Shown: positions 8,691 to 18,516 of the stretch, piece after piece
How positions within the stretch are numbered: the first letter of the stretch is position 1
How the letters are laid out: each line of letters begins with the position of its first letter
Notes under the pieces: model-generated
What the model was told of the DNA's origin: nothing
Database searches by the model: none
What the model saw: only the letters and a program-made list of their open reading frames with translations
Position numbers and translations under genes: made by a program
Source: a virus
IMG/VR virus record: IMGVR_UViG_3300027907_000057
Coordinates: 1-22,451 of that record
Reading direction: 5' to 3' (one strand)
DNA length: 22,451 nt

Positions 8691-9710
8691 TTACGTTCCT
8701 ACGTTGATGGAAGACGCGGCCAGCGTAGCCGTGGCCCGCGTCGAAGATCCTACCGCGTTCGCCTGCGTTGCGCCAGTCCCCACTCGCGCCTGGCTGTTGG
8801 CTAGGGGGATTGTGGCCTGGCTGCTGGAAAGGGTCGCCACTACCACCGAAGCGGACAGGGGTACGCCGATCACCTCGATGGGCCCGGAAAGGGGCGAGAT
8901 GATGAAGGCCTGCCGGGTCTCCGACATGGCCTCCACGTCGTTGATCAGCCGGACCAGCCCGCGGATCGTAGCCAGGGCTTCGGCCGCTTGTTCCTGCTCG
9001 TTCACCACACGGCGCATCGTGGCCGCGCGGTTGGCTTGCTCGGCAATGGCTTGCAGCTCGTCCACTACACGGCGGAGGGTCATCACGCGCGCCACCGTCT
9101 CGGGCATCTGCTCCACTTCGTTCAGGATCCGGCGCAGCGCGCGGGGCTGTAGGGTCGTCTCAACAAGGGAAACAGATTCTCCGATCACCTTGACCAGCAG
9201 GGACGCTATGGCCTCCGCGGTGGTCTCCACGATGGACTCCGACTCGTTCACCACCAGACGCCGGCCGGTCACCACTCTCGTGGCCTCCACCACCTGCTGC
9301 ACCTCGCTGGCAATTCGGACGAGCCCGCGTACCTGGCTCGCAGCTTCGGGGATCTGCTCTTGCTCGTTCTGGAGCCGGCTTAGTGCGCGGGGGCGTAGGG
9401 CCGTCTCGGGGATCTGCTCCACCTCGGACAACACGCGCGCCATCACGCGCGGGCGTACGATGGCTTCGGGGATCTGCTCTTGCTCGGACAGGATCCTGGC
9501 TAGCGTGCGCGCTCGCGGATCCGTCTCAGGGATCTGCTCCACCTCGGACACGATGCGCGTCTGTCCGCTGCGTCGGGTAGCCGCTTCGTTCAGTTGCTCC
9601 GTCTCGTTCACCACCGTGACGAGCGCAGCGCCGCCACCCGGTGGCGTGTCCGAACCTACTTCGGCTTCGCCGATATAGCTGGTGCTGGATCCTATGACGA
9701 ATCCAACCAC
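8691..9710 (-). CDS. Virion protein with twelve 20-residue tandem repeats
   Basis: The 339-residue protein has a short N-terminal part (MVGFVIGSSTSYIGEAEVGS), twelve tandem units (residues 31-272) and a C-terminal part rich in Ala, Ser, Thr and Val. The unit is RhhxxExEQhxExxxxxRxh, where h is hydrophobic; good copies are ARILSEQEQIPEAIVRPRVM and ARVLSEVEQIPETALRPRAL. Regular spacing of Glu and of hydrophobic residues points to a rod-like or solenoid structure. Start is GTG 9710, overlapping the previous stop by one base (TAGTG). Related E-x-x-x-x-x-E repeats occur in phage and archaeal surface proteins. A fibre role is inferred from neighbours. Confidence 0.8.
   Translation of the reverse strand: MVGFVIGSSTSYIGEAEVGSDTPPGGGAALVTVVNETEQLNEAATRRSGQTRIVSEVEQIPETDPRARTLARILSEQEQIPEAIVRPRVMARVLSEVEQIPETALRPRALSRLQNEQEQIPEAASQVRGLVRIASEVQQVVEATRVVTGRRLVVNESESIVETTAEAIASLLVKVIGESVSLVETTLQPRALRRILNEVEQMPETVARVMTLRRVVDELQAIAEQANRAATMRRVVNEQEQAAEALATIRGLVRLINDVEAMSETRQAFIISPLSGPIEVIGVPLSASVVVATLSSSQATIPLANSQARVGTGATQANAVGSSTRATATLAASSINVGT
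8895..9620 (-). repeat. 60-base coding tandem repeat
   Basis: Twelve units of 60 bases (one unit has a 6-base insertion) encode the 20-residue repeat. The most conserved piece, GATCTGCTC on the plus strand, recurs exactly 60 bases apart at 9351, 9411, 9471 and 9531. Units further from these copies have diverged. Such an array can gain or lose units. Confidence 0.88.
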
Positions 9711-12928: not shown

Positions 12929-14437
12929 TTAGTCTCGCATCAACAAGGTGGCAGGCACACGAGGGCCCTGCGCGGGGGCCATGTTCAGCAGCTCGGCATA
13001 GGCCCGGCTGGTTGCGTCGGCCTGGTCTTTGTAGTCGCTGTTCGGGAACAGGCGCAGCTCGGCCAGGTAGGCATCGTTCCAGGGGCCGCGCACGATGTAC
13101 ACGTTACCGTTCTCCATCTGCGCCGCCAGGGGCAGGGCCCGTTGCGCCTTCTCACCGGCCTCGGGGCTGCTCGTCAACAGGAATCCGTGGAAGTCCTTTG
13201 CGTAGTCCGCCACCTGCGCCACGCCGGCCTGGCCAGGGTCCTGCGGGATGCTGATGCGCACCATGCGCCCGTCCTGGTCGGCCGCACTACGCACGAAGGT
13301 CTTCACCTCGCCCGGGCCCGCCTGCACACGCCGGCAGTCCAGGATGATCACCTTGCCGTCGGCCGTCATGCCCAGCTTCGCGCCCGCGGAGTAGGCCGCG
13401 CGGGGGTTCTTCTTTCTGCTCGTTGCCGCGAAGTCCCACCCACGACATACGCGCACAACGTTTGCAGGCGGAGCATCCAGGAACTGCACCTTGTCCACCT
13501 TGAACAGGTTTCCTTCGCGCGGTGCCGGCCGCTGCTGTAGCTGTGCTGCCTCCGCGTAGCTGCCGCCCCACGCACGTAGCTGCGTCTTCAGCTCGTCCAC
13601 TGCGTTGCGCGGGAACCGCTCGGGCCACAACAGTTCCCCGTCCTCGGTGCGCCAGTCCGCGAACGTGTTGCCCTTCGGCATGACCACACGCGTAGCGCAG
13701 TGTCGGTCCTTCTCGTACTCCATCGGCAGACACAGGTGCACCCAGTCTTCGCCCAGCTCTTCCAGGATCAGGCCCGCGATGTCGCGCTGGTGCAGCCGCT
13801 GCATGATCACCACTATGGCCGATTCGTTGGCCTTGTTCAATCGTGTGGGCAGCGTCTCCGCGAACCAGCGCAGGGACTCTTCGCGCTCCGCATCGGACTC
13901 GGCGCCCTTCACGCTGTGCGGGTCGTCGATCAGGATTCGGTCTCCGCGGTAGCCCGTCAGGCTCGCGCGCACCGAAGACGAGAAACGCCAACCCGTGTTC
14001 GTGTTCTCGTAGTACGTCTTCTGGTCCTGGTCGTCCTTGAACGCGAGCGGCCACCGCGCCTGATACCACTCGCTGCGCACAAGGTCGCGGCTTCGCACTG
14101 CGTCGCGGATGCTCAGGCCCTGCTCGTAGCTCGCGCCGATGAACCGATGGTGCGCGAGCCCGCGCGGGCCCCACTCCCACGTCGGCCAGGCCACGCACGT
14201 CATCCAGCTCTTCGTACATCCAGGCGGAACGTTTATCAGCAGCTTGCGGATCTGTCCTTCGGTCACCGCTTGCAGGTGCTCCGCAATCGCTTCCACGGCC
14301 CTACCGCGTTGGAACTTCGTGCCCGGCTCCAGCACGTGCCACGCTTGTTCGGTGTAGTCGATCAGCGCAAGCTCGCAGCGGGCCTTCATCGGGTCCGCCT
14401 GCATCTTCGCCAGCTCCGCGGCCGCGTCGAACTTCAC
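12929..14437 (-). CDS. terL: Terminase large subunit
   Basis: The 502-residue packaging motor contains an ATPase and a nuclease domain. Walker A-like VPPGCTKS is at 70-77, Walker B ILIDD at 168-172, and the coupling segment MQRLHQRDIAG at 212-222. The RNase H-like nuclease has GWDFAATSRKKN (Asp335), IPQDPGQAG (Asp400) and DYKDQADATSRAYAEL (Asp471, Asp474). Length and motifs match the family annotated as 'phage terminase large subunit, psiM2-type C-terminal domain'. Start is GTG 14437, sharing four bases with the previous stop (GTGA). It binds the portal during DNA packaging. Confidence 0.95.
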   Translation of the reverse strand: MKFDAAAELAKMQADPMKARCELALIDYTEQAWHVLEPGTKFQRGRAVEAIAEHLQAVTEGQIRKLLINVPPGCTKSWMTCVAWPTWEWGPRGLAHHRFIGASYEQGLSIRDAVRSRDLVRSEWYQARWPLAFKDDQDQKTYYENTNTGWRFSSSVRASLTGYRGDRILIDDPHSVKGAESDAEREESLRWFAETLPTRLNKANESAIVVIMQRLHQRDIAGLILEELGEDWVHLCLPMEYEKDRHCATRVVMPKGNTFADWRTEDGELLWPERFPRNAVDELKTQLRAWGGSYAEAAQLQQRPAPREGNLFKVDKVQFLDAPPANVVRVCRGWDFAATSRKKNPRAAYSAGAKLGMTADGKVIILDCRRVQAGPGEVKTFVRSAADQDGRMVRISIPQDPGQAGVAQVADYAKDFHGFLLTSSPEAGEKAQRALPLAAQMENGNVYIVRGPWNDAYLAELRLFPNSDYKDQADATSRAYAELLNMAPAQGPRVPATLLMRD

Positions 14438-14628
14438 CGGTCACCACCCATGCCCGCACAGTCGCACGGCTGGTGATGACGCTTGTAGTAGCAGCGAACT
14501 GTTTCGCACAGGTCTTCGCAGTTGCGCGCATGTGGGCAACGCTTGCTGTGGCAAGTCTCGCAGCAGTACATCCGCTGCAAGGGCTGCGGCGCATGCGTCT
14601 GGCAGCAGTCGCGCACCTCGTCCGTCAC
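14434..14628 (-). CDS. Cysteine-rich 64-residue protein between terminase genes
   Basis: GTG 14628 overlaps the previous stop (GTGA) and has GGAG 8 bases upstream. The 64-residue product contains 11 Cys and 5 His, with motifs CCETC (22-26), KRCPHARNCEDLC (29-41) and PCDC (54-57). This density suggests one or two zinc sites or disulfides. Its stop overlaps the large terminase start. I do not recognise a family. Coupling to both neighbours suggests a role around packaging or DNA recognition, but this is inference. The long upstream extension of the same frame (to 14880) is a shadow of the neighbouring gene. Confidence 0.72.
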   Translation of the reverse strand: MTDEVRDCCQTHAPQPLQRMYCCETCHSKRCPHARNCEDLCETVRCYYKRHHQPCDCAGMGGDR

Positions 14629-14906
14629 GTGCACCGCTCCATGCTGGCCGGTCCCGGGCACCCGCGGCCGCCGATCAGGCCGATAGGCTCGTCGAAAGAG
14701 TAGGCCTTGCCGCAGTGCTTGCAGCGGATCTTCGCCGTGCCGTTCTCGTCCCAGCGTGTGGTGTAGACATGCGCGGCCCAGGTCCAGCCCTGGCTCGGAT
14801 GTCCCGCGTTGTTGCTCAGCCAGGCCGTGATCGCGCCCACCAGCTCGTGCGGCACACCGCGCCGTAGCAGCTCGTCGCACAGCATCGCGATACGCTCAGC
14901 TTCCAT
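14625..14906 (-). CDS. Small zinc-ribbon-like protein, 93 residues
   Basis: ATG 14906 lies inside the end of the small terminase gene (11-base overlap), giving MEAERIAMLCDELLRRGVP onward. The first 35 residues form a helix pair. A C-terminal metal-binding candidate follows: RCKHCGKAYSFDEPIGL with Cys62 and Cys65, then Cys83 in RGCPG and Cys92. CKHCGK is typical of zinc ribbons. The function is unknown; the gene is coupled to terminase genes on both sides. Longer versions of the frame run through the terminase gene and are not credible. Confidence 0.75.
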   Translation of the reverse strand: MEAERIAMLCDELLRRGVPHELVGAITAWLSNNAGHPSQGWTWAAHVYTTRWDENGTAKIRCKHCGKAYSFDEPIGLIGGRGCPGPASMERCT

Positions 14907-15426
14907 CGGCCACCACTTCGAACGAAGCCAGGAACTCGCGCGCCTTTCGCCGCTGCTCGGGTGTGTAGTGTTCCACCTCGATGCGCCCGCTGTGCTTGTG
15001 CTCCACCGTGCCGCTGTGCTTCTGGTCCACAGCCACGCGCTCGGTCCAGCTCCCTGACTCTTGCTTGCGCAGCCACGCGAGCAGAAGTCGCTCGCTGTAC
15101 CGACGCTCGCGCACAACAACAGCTCCCGTGTCGTTGCGAACTTCCTTCGTGATCACACCGCGCACAGCATGTTCCCGCACGACGCCCATCAGCTCTTCGG
15201 CCAGCAGGTCCATGGCTCGCTTGCATTCCGCCGCGAACTCTTCGTCATGGTCGCGGTGGTAGCGCACCACACTTTCGTAGATGCCCACCGCTGCGGCCGC
15301 CGCGTTGACGGAGCCCGACCGTTGCAGCGCCAGCAGGAACGACGCCCGCACCTCGGGATTCCACACGGTACGGTTGTGTCTCGGCCCCAATGGTTGGGGG
15401 CTGGGGTTGGCCGGCAGGTCAGGCAT
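14896..15426 (-). CDS. terS: Terminase small subunit (helix-turn-helix type)
   Basis: The 176-residue protein recognises phage DNA and guides the large terminase. An N-terminal Pro-rich arm is followed by a helix-turn-helix segment (SVNAAAAAVGIYESVVRYHR, 39-58) and a helical region (EEFAAECKRAMDLLAEELMG). The RYSERLLLAWLRKQESGSWT block (109-128) resembles the common phage DUF in which RYSDxLLxxLLK is conserved. The C-terminal region has a helix EHYTPEQRRKAREFLASF. ATG at 15426 has no good ribosome binding site; upstream is the repeat region. Family call is by resemblance. Confidence 0.84.
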   Translation of the reverse strand: MPDLPANPSPQPLGPRHNRTVWNPEVRASFLLALQRSGSVNAAAAAVGIYESVVRYHRDHDEEFAAECKRAMDLLAEELMGVVREHAVRGVITKEVRNDTGAVVVRERRYSERLLLAWLRKQESGSWTERVAVDQKHSGTVEHKHSGRIEVEHYTPEQRRKAREFLASFEVVADGS

Positions 15427-15743
15427 GACTCGCGAAGTTTCGCAACAGTTGTGCCACGTGTCAACCCCCTCGTCCGGCCGTCCCTTCGCGCCCGGTCAGC
15501 CACCCCTTCCACGTTTTGCCAACCCTACTATTTGTTAGGGTGTCACTCGGCATCTGCCCGTGTCATCGCAATACCCGTAGTACGTGCCAACCCTTCCATA
15601 CTACCCTTCTCTCTCTCTAAGAAAGATAGGTAAGGCAGGGGGAAGGGTTGGAAACATGGGCGACTGATTCAGAGGGGTGGTAGCCCTCGGCAACCTGTTC
15701 CGGGCTTTGTGCCACAACGGGTTACGATGCCAACCCCCACCTT
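15427..15743. other. Non-coding region upstream of the small terminase gene
   Basis: No convincing gene lies in these 317 bases. They hold TGYCAACCC repeats in both orientations, an 11-bp inverted repeat, a CTCTCTCTCT tract (around 15609-15618), and TTGTGCCAC at 15449-15457 and 15707-15715 near each end. TTGTGCCACAA at 15707-15717 is a near-palindrome. A position next to the terminase genes suggests a packaging-site or regulatory role. Confidence 0.6.
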
Positions 15744-15773
15744 TCAGGGATTGGCAGACTGTGGAAGGGTTGG
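15459..15773. repeat. TGYCAACCC repeat family (iteron-like)
   Basis: TGYCAACCC occurs in the same orientation at 15459-15467 (TGTCAACCC), 15517-15525, 15585-15593 and 15728-15736 (TGCCAACCC). GGAAGGGTTGG, partly the inverse, occurs at 15641-15651 and 15763-15773; the last copy lies in the end of the upstream gene. Spacings of the direct copies are about 58, 68 and 143 bases. The set is consistent with multiple binding sites for one protein. Confidence 0.65.
15587..15651. repeat. Perfect 11-bp inverted repeat with 43-base spacer
   Basis: CCAACCCTTCC at 15587-15597 and GGAAGGGTTGG at 15641-15651 are exact inverse copies. The 43-base spacer contains the CT tract, AAGAAAGATAGG and a run of G. 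It could form a long hairpin or present two opposed protein-binding sites. No T-run argues for simple termination. Confidence 0.6.
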
Positions 15774-16013
15774 AACAGCCAGCCCCACCTGCCGCAGGTC
15801 CGAAGGCCACGCGAAGAACAGCCAGCCCGGTAGATTGTTCAGGACACACCCGCGCCGCGTGCCCGGATTCTGCGCCCGCTCCAGCTTGCACCCGATGGCC
15901 GCCCACGGATCCCGGCGCCGCAGCTCGGCCGCCATCTTCCGCACCACAGGCACCATCCCTCCAGGGCACTCTGTCCCTACCCCTAACCATGTCGAACCCA
16001 GCGGTGTCTTCAT
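15744..16013 (-). CDS. Hypothetical protein, tandem paralog B (89 residues)
   Basis: ATG 16013 overlaps the previous stop by 4 bases (ATGA) and follows GGAGGAAGAAAGC. The product begins MKTPLGSTWLGVGTECPGG and has MVPVVRKMAAELRRRDPWA and FFAWPSDLRQVGL. It aligns along its whole length with the upstream neighbour (MKTVPLGAEWIG.., CPDGWVVVTRRQAVELRRK, EFLFMARPEDLRSAGL), so the two arose by tandem duplication. No domain is recognised. Its last codons carry one copy of the repeat family found downstream. Confidence 0.78.
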   Translation of the reverse strand: MKTPLGSTWLGVGTECPGGMVPVVRKMAAELRRRDPWAAIGCKLERAQNPGTRRGCVLNNLPGWLFFAWPSDLRQVGLAVPTLPQSANP

Positions 16014-16288
16014 GCTTTCTTCCTCCGTCCCCACCCTCTTCCATTCTCGGGAAGCCCAGCCGATCGCAGGTCCTCGGGCCGCGCCATGAACAGGAATTCC
16101 GCCCGCTGCTGCACCAGTGTCCCGTCCCGGGCCTTCCGAGGCCGCAACGGTTGCCACAGCGTGCACAGCATCCGGGCCGTCATTTTCCGCCGCAGTTCGA
16201 CGGCCTGCCGGCGGGTCACTACCACCCACCCGTCCGGACACTTCGCCCACGGCCCGATCCACTCCGCACCCAGGGGCACCGTCTTCAT
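16010..16288 (-). CDS. Hypothetical protein, tandem paralog A (92 residues)
   Basis: ATG 16288 overlaps the previous stop (ATGA). The product MKTVPLGAEWIGPWAKCPDG onward is basic at its C-terminus (GRGWGRRKKA). It shares the pattern PLG..W.G....CP.G..V..R...ELRR and F.A.P.DLR..GL with the next gene. I do not recognise a family. Conservation of both copies at similar length implies both are functional. Confidence 0.78.
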   Translation of the reverse strand: MKTVPLGAEWIGPWAKCPDGWVVVTRRQAVELRRKMTARMLCTLWQPLRPRKARDGTLVQQRAEFLFMARPEDLRSAGLPENGRGWGRRKKA

Positions 16289-18093: not shown

Positions 18094-18516
18094 CTAGCCT
18101 GGCAGGCTGTCCCCTCGAACAATCTTTCGGATTCCCGAACGGGTCTTGTTGAAGAGCGCAGCCAGCTCGTCGTGCGTCAGTAGTCCGTGGAGCCGTCGGA
18201 TAGCTCTTGCGTCGTCGATTGTCAACCGCCAGGGCTTCAGACCGGTTCTCTGTCGGCCAGCTCGCACCATGTCTGCCGCGTTTTCCGCAGCCGTTCCAGG
18301 AACCAGGTGCTCAGGGTTGCAACACCGGGGATTGTTGCACGAATGCCGAAGCAGTGGCGGCAGCTCTTTCCGCAGCAGGAAGTAGGCCAGTCTATGTGCC
18401 CGCCACCACCTGCCGCGAATCTTGTGGTGCCCGTAACCCTCCGACGTTGTGCCAGCCGTCCAGGGCCAGCACTCCATCGGAGCACCGCGGCGAACCTTCT
18501 TCCAGAACGTTTCCAT
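18094..18516 (-). CDS. HNH endonuclease with C-terminal helix-turn-helix
   Basis: The 140-residue protein has an HNH_3-type core: CWPWTAGTTSEGYGHHKIRG (16-35), RAHRLAYFLLRKELPP (39-54) and RHSCNNPRCCNPEHLVPGTA (57-76) with His58, Asn61-62 and His70. Such enzymes nick or cut double-stranded DNA with a metal ion. The C-terminus (LTIDDARAIRRLHGLLTHDE, ALFNKTRSGIRKIVRGD) resembles a DNA-binding helix-turn-helix. Phage genomes often carry these as free-standing homing endonucleases. It stands alone between a terminator and accessory genes. ATG at 18516 has a poor ribosome binding site. Confidence 0.9.
   Translation of the reverse strand: METFWKKVRRGAPMECWPWTAGTTSEGYGHHKIRGRWWRAHRLAYFLLRKELPPLLRHSCNNPRCCNPEHLVPGTAAENAADMVRAGRQRTGLKPWRLTIDDARAIRRLHGLLTHDELAALFNKTRSGIRKIVRGDSLPG

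Follow-up and report, generated by a model that had tools for sequence, protein, structure and literature searches.

A repeat-bearing gap upstream of a phage small terminase gene as a candidate late-operon control region and replication origin

Introduction

What function could be served by a 317-base non-coding gap, filled with short repeats, directly in front of the small terminase gene of a phage? The DNA analysed here (the window) is an IMG/VR contig in full, a linear fragment of 22,451 bases in which every called gene is on the minus strand. A first-pass annotation had read the repeats as a good candidate for a packaging initiation site resembling lambda cosB or, alternatively, for a control region of the late genes. 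The answer depends on which features of the gap are specific to this phage, which are kept in its relatives, and where the genomes of those relatives end.

Results

The genes for TerS and TerL are followed by those for a Mu-like portal, a Mu F-like head protein, an XkdF-like protease and an E-type capsid protein, and the gap occupies the start of this terminase/structural operon (Table 1). Its extent agrees with the first-pass annotation, but it is the longest gap, as described there, only on condition that two further regions count as genic: the weakly coding ORFs at 15744-16288 and the HNH ORF at 18094-18516. The former are two adjacent small ORFs (15744-16013 and 16010-16288, minus strand) that form a tandem duplication with 43% identity just upstream of the gap; the latter (minus strand), in the block upstream of the gap, is HNH-type endonuclease-like with sub-threshold Pfam matches. 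In the syntenic relative L010, SSB and homologues of g19113, g18614 and g19523 are located directly before the gap. Small Cys/His-rich candidate ORFs without a family match lie between terS and terL (14438-14895), and a protein at 8691-9710 (minus strand), also without a family match, contains degenerate EQEQIPEA-like repeats with a 60-nt period at 9386-9550. A search for RNA families or tRNAs found none.

Table 1. Features of the terS-upstream gap and its surroundings (window coordinates).
Feature	Position	Strand	Evidence or remark
terL, large terminase subunit	12929..14437	-	Terminase_6C
terS, small terminase subunit	14896..15426	-	phrog_4044; YuA gp50 homologue, E 9e-7
Non-coding gap, 317 bases, directly upstream of terS	15427..15743	-	largest gap in G004/G005 at same place
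Candidate sigma-70-type promoter TTGACA-17-GAAACT into terS	15436..15464	-	6/6 and 3/6; below scanner threshold
Sigma-54-type (-24/-12) match TGGCAC-N5-TTGC	15442..15456	-	10/10, only perfect match in window
Repeat TGTCAACCC; antisense contains TTGACA	15459..15467	+	TGYCAACCC scan
Degenerate repeat CCACCCCTTCC, 1 mismatch	15500..15510	+	11-mer scan
Repeat TGCCAACCC	15517..15525	+	TGYCAACCC scan
Repeat TGCCAACCCTTCC, left flank of core	15585..15597	+	TGYCAACCC and 11-mer scans
AT/CT-rich core, melting-element candidate	15589..15638	.	least stable 50-bp window of contig, rank 1
Conserved segment TTACCTATCTTTCTTAGAGAGAGAGA inside core	15608..15633	-	PaMx11, RaNi gap matches
Inverted repeat copy (GGAAGGGTTGG on +), right flank of core	15641..15651	-	11-mer scan
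Repeat TGCCAACCC	15728..15736	+	TGYCAACCC scan
Upstream ORF, weakly coding, paralogue of 16010-16288 ORF	15744..16013	-	43% identity
Inverted repeat copy inside 3' end of upstream ORF	15763..15773	-	11-mer scan; encodes VPTLPQ

The motif TGYCAACCC has exactly four matches in the window, all on the plus strand, against 0.49 expected; four were reached in 0 of 100 shuffles, confirming the same-orientation copies of the first-pass annotation as beyond chance. The 11-mer GGAAGGGTTGG and its reversed form CCAACCCTTCC (15587-15597) together have four matches, including the copy with one mismatch, against 0.27 expected (0 of 100 shuffles). Both of the previously noted opposite-orientation copies are present, but the one at 15763 lies inside the upstream ORF rather than in the gap. 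All copies of TGYCAACCC (4/4) and of CCAACCCTTCC in the contig fall inside the gap or at its edge, and in a blind k-mer repeat test (k = 7 to 11) the observed number of repeated pairs was reached by 0 of 2,000 shuffles. The gap thus contains the clustered, specific repeats that characterize an iteron-type replication origin. The CT tract (~15608-15619) is also present, as is TTGTGCCAC near both ends (15449 and 15707), with the correction that the copy at 15449 overlaps a promoter-like element. On the plus strand, GGGGGAAGGGTTGGAAACATGGG (15637-15663) resembles the known G-quadruplex former Gq23 (PMC3136172).

Judging from sequence comparison, the exact repeat is private to the window phage. 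Two or more copies were found in 0 of 80 TerL-related IMG/VR loci (best 54% identity), and single-protein scans for close relatives returned none. As a widespread signal the exact motif was rejected: a pattern scan of viral contigs gave only three matches, one being a hairpin-like pair that follows a PhoH gene and the other two coming from phages with a D5 helicase, and an inverted-pair search of bacterial genomes gave eight, all of them hairpins in bacterial contexts and none in a phage. In three loci from phages that have a D5 helicase and another kind of terminase (L087, L088 and L089), the 11-mer CCAACCCTTCC is repeated, partly in inverted orientation, in the stretch that separates the helicase gene from the following gene. 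The D5/SF3 helicase was rejected as the repeat binder, being present in these three phages and absent from the relatives G004-G006, S0112 and X3_2. Two candidates for a shared word were also discarded. A GGTTGG iteron was suggestive in L010 and L018 but not in held-out isolates; GTAAGTA, the top word in a blind search of seven gaps, is lineage-specific, being present in three of 11 held-out isolates (two of them YuA-like) with six copies against 0.46 expected.

Comparison with relatives, which the first-pass annotation had called for, gave a divided result: the exact repeat is private, whereas the gap and its CT/AT-rich core are conserved. Of the 12 isolates whose TerS is homologous and whose annotation could be read, 11 have a gap of 250-930 bases before terS. 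Its annotated length is 659 bases in YuA, 667 in PSP2, 641 in CN1, 926 in Ab18, 752 in phiH1, 254 in JWX, 880 in RaNi, 629 in Fanboy and 432 in Delta, and at least 829 in PaMx11 and at least 617 in Sonora. RcRudolph (81 bases) lacks the gap, and so does S0112, though it carries a family A polymerase. Non-coding gaps directly before terS also occur in the TerL-related IMG/VR loci L010 (445 bases), L018 (686), L029 (410) and L056 (476), while L014 and L015 have long weakly coding stretches there; in G004 (the contig of L010) and G005 (that of L018) this gap is the largest of the contig. Repeats are in strong excess over shuffles in the window, L014, L015, L029 and L056 and in weak excess in L010 and L018, with a separate repeat family in the gap of each relative. 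The TerS of YuA is homologous to that of the window, even though BLASTP detects no similarity between their TerL proteins. With a phrog_4044/YuA-type TerS preceded by a gap that holds the least stable stretch of the window, the locus has the makeup of a YuA-type terS-upstream control gap.

Three further arrangements were seen in the relatives. Before terS in L015 (757-1009), inverted ATAACCATT arrays surround an AT-rich centre in a very origin-like layout. Between terS and terL in G006 (58983-59793), an 811-base gap is densely filled with repeats resembling GCAAAATGAGCA/CATGTGCA, at a k-mer z above 25. For phage Delta, the CtrA gap was considered as the terS gap and rejected, because in the record the genes flanking the latter run in one direction.

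The core was delimited by a nearest-neighbour stability scan. At each window size between 40 and 100 bp, the terS gap ranks first or second genome-wide for low duplex stability in G004, G005, G006, YuA, CN1, Sonora, Ab18 and phiH1; counting the window contig, such a rank was obtained for 9 of 9 tested long genomes with the gap. A candidate unwinding element of exceptionally low duplex stability, another hallmark of an iteron-type origin, is therefore present. The AT content of the core in the window, 56%, is modest compared with that of its relatives. A chance estimate based on length alone is too generous for these ranks, because non-coding stretches are AT-richer than genes; within G004 and within G005, the terS gap nonetheless exceeds the remaining gaps. 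The best local match of the window gap to the PaMx11 and RaNi gaps pairs TTACCTATCTTTCTTAGAGAGAGAGA with TTACTCTACTTTCTTTAGAGAGAGAGA (0 of 200 shuffles), and the same window segment is matched by Epa5 (1/200), L029 (4/200) and CN1 (5/200). The shuffle control matters here because the segment is of low complexity; the match includes the CT tract, and the flanking TTAC/TTTCTT(T)AG bases match as well. In many Pseudomonas-group phages the core is 300-390 bases from terS, whatever the length of the gap.

BLAST revealed that the gap element is duplicated 28-35 kb away, about half a genome, in YuA (84% identity over 57 bp), CN1 (83% over 139 bp), Sonora (72% over 110 bp) and Ab18 (86% over 305 bp, inverted), and phiH1 has a weak match to a second place. 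For three of these phages (YuA, CN1 and Sonora), the second copy occupies the intergenic space immediately preceding a DNA helicase gene. The YuA record places a promoter with measured activity, annotated '1000 MU, clear -35/-10', next to each of the two cores, which lie near 620 and 33,170. No second copy was found by BLAST in G004 or G005; the second least stable place in G004 is just before a helicase-like ORF at 51497. The window, a partial contig, is too short to contain a second copy.

On the terS strand, the candidate TTGACA-17-GAAACT promoter ends about 9 bases before the TerS ATG; a generic sigma-70 scanner reported nothing. The spacer of this candidate contains the perfect sigma-54-type match. 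We do not commit to sigma-54, because this match is not conserved in the relatives, where the best score is 6-8/10; the YuA record annotates -24/-12 promoters (2000 MU) in late genes. A TTGACN/TTGCGC-like -35 box is found 35-38 bases before terS, or before the first gene of the block, in L010, L132, L194 (Delta), L199 (Fanboy) and the window, a distance that would yield a nearly leaderless mRNA. CtrA sites were also considered and dropped, with 0 occurrences of TTAA-N7-TTAA in the gap. The position at the operon start, the promoter-like elements before terS and the measured activity recorded for the YuA gap promoter all support the earlier proposal of a late-gene control region.

Discussion

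We propose, with a probability of roughly 0.48, that the gap is a late-operon control region combining a late promoter into terS with a replication origin. The repeats, the gap, the preservation of gap and core, the low stability and, in relatives, the second core copy before the helicase gene are directly shown; origin function, protein binding and promoter activity in the window phage are what we infer. The late promoter would read into terS, and the lineage-specific iteron-like repeats (GGAAGGGTTGG / GGGTTGGCA) flanking the core would bind a phage initiator or regulator. By analogy with the T7 primary origin and the SPP1 origins, the CT/AT-rich core at 15589-15638 would melt, perhaps helped by transcription, and would be loaded by the phage primase-helicase and a family A polymerase. 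A family A DNA polymerase is present in 8 of 10 related records searched. On the other side, GC skew carried no signal of an origin. The contig stops before any replication module, and neither a replication initiator nor a protein that binds iterons was identified. The literature searched contained no published replication origin for YuA-like phages.

For an element that stands at the start of both early and late operons, a purely transcriptional role is equally possible. The gap would then hold one or more late promoters and an array of sites for a phage or host activator or repressor, without origin function, and the repeats would serve as operators or enhancers, for instance as upstream activator sites of a sigma-54 promoter at 15442-15456. 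This match is perfect, unique in the window, directly upstream of terS and overlaps TTGACA-17-GAAACT; the YuA terS gap has its 1000 MU promoter and the YuA late genes their -24/-12 promoters; the repeats face both ways and are unevenly spaced, an arrangement that enhancers may also show; and in alphaproteobacterial phages, repeat arrays in intergenic gaps are bound by CtrA of the host, with an effect on expression (PMC9437464). However, the sigma-54 match is not conserved in relatives, TTAA-N7-TTAA is missing from the gap, and a core among the least stable stretches of whole genomes is not readily explained by transcription. We consider this account less probable than the combined one. That the gap is a decayed or low-complexity spacer, functional only as a promoter and with repeats that are recombination debris, is very improbable. 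The exact repeat does lack counterparts in TerL-sharing loci, and the inverted-pair search of the genome collection gave only hairpins outside a phage context; but all save one of the 12 annotated isolates, and several environmental relatives, retain the gap and its conserved core, and compact phage genomes are expected to lose neutral spacer.

The packaging reading supposes a pac or cos site bound by TerS, possibly an SPP1-like pac overlapping the late promoter. The gap is directly before terS and accompanies a homologous TerS even in YuA, whose TerL shows no BLASTP similarity, its core keeps its distance from terS in many Pseudomonas-group phages despite variation in gap length, and SPP1 pac overlaps late promoters and the 5' end of terS (PMC6316719). 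We nevertheless regard a packaging site as unlikely, because the read-based ends reported for two TerS relatives are far from terS, in one case as judged from the record, and the core is duplicated. Stenotrophomonas phage Sonora, which belongs to the same TerS family, has the gap and carries a core like that of the window phage, has an end predicted by PhageTerm at 46430, ~18 kb from terS (PMC9022593). Shewanella phage S0112 (TerL 52% identical) is called T5-like (PMC6893657) and has terS near 28.4 kb of its record, which would put the terminus ~28 kb from terS if the record starts at the terminus. A core that recurs at about half a genome's distance, as it does in four isolates, would be unusual for a packaging start. 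Paracoccus phage Pkon1 (TerL 41% identical) is without cohesive ends (PMC6536676), and Mesyanzhinovviridae are thought to be circularly permuted (PMC11946847). G004 and G006, listed as linear, are probably complete circular assemblies, because they have exact end overlaps of 117 and 123 bases; each can be closed into a circle that includes the gap, and this speaks against a fixed unligated end there but is compatible with headful packaging. Contig ends within the gap were rejected as cos evidence: they are few (L016 and L132), show no clear excess, and two relatives are circular.

Beyond the combined promoter and origin at this locus, we tentatively suggest, with clearly less confidence, a rapidly evolving two-origin system in a widespread siphophage class that comprises Mesyanzhinovviridae and numerous uncultured relatives possessing family A polymerases. 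One core would precede the early helicase operon and the other terS; with a promoter and lineage-specific iterons at either core, the system would couple replication initiation to early and late transcription. A short element that ranks among the least stable parts of many genomes, holds its position before terS across hosts and recurs before the early helicase gene offers a precise, testable target, and repeats beside terS should not be read as packaging sites by analogy with lambda.

Among known systems, the T7 primary origin likewise sets a promoter next to an AT-rich stretch, in phages that encode a family A polymerase together with a primase-helicase; it differs in using a phage RNA polymerase promoter, none being known in the window gap. 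CtrA-site gaps of alphaproteobacterial phages (PMC9437464) are likewise intergenic arrays of repeated binding sites, putative in the window, but are built on a different motif, TTAA-N7-TTAA, that the window gap does not contain. SPP1 oriL and oriR, two per genome, combine direct repeats with an AT-rich unwinding element (PMC6316719), and the window gap likewise has repeats and a candidate unwinding element; oriL, however, is within gene 38 rather than before terS, and the initiator gp38 was not found here. SPP1 pac and lambda cosB resemble the window repeats in adjoining or overlapping the terS start, but differ in that the TerS relatives have reported ends far from terS and a duplicated core. 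YuA (Yuavirus, Mesyanzhinovviridae) shares with the window a gap before a homologous terS, a least-stable AT-rich core, repeats and a nearby promoter; its core (GTAAGTAAGTTAAGTA, with TATC repeats) and repeats (CTTGGGTT) are different, and it has a second copy before the helicase gene, whereas the window is a partial contig. In Abidjanvirus (PaMx11, Ab18 and RaNi) and Epa5 the gap is two to three times longer, the flanking repeats are others and TerL is different, but the CT-tract/TAAA/purine core matches that of the window directly.
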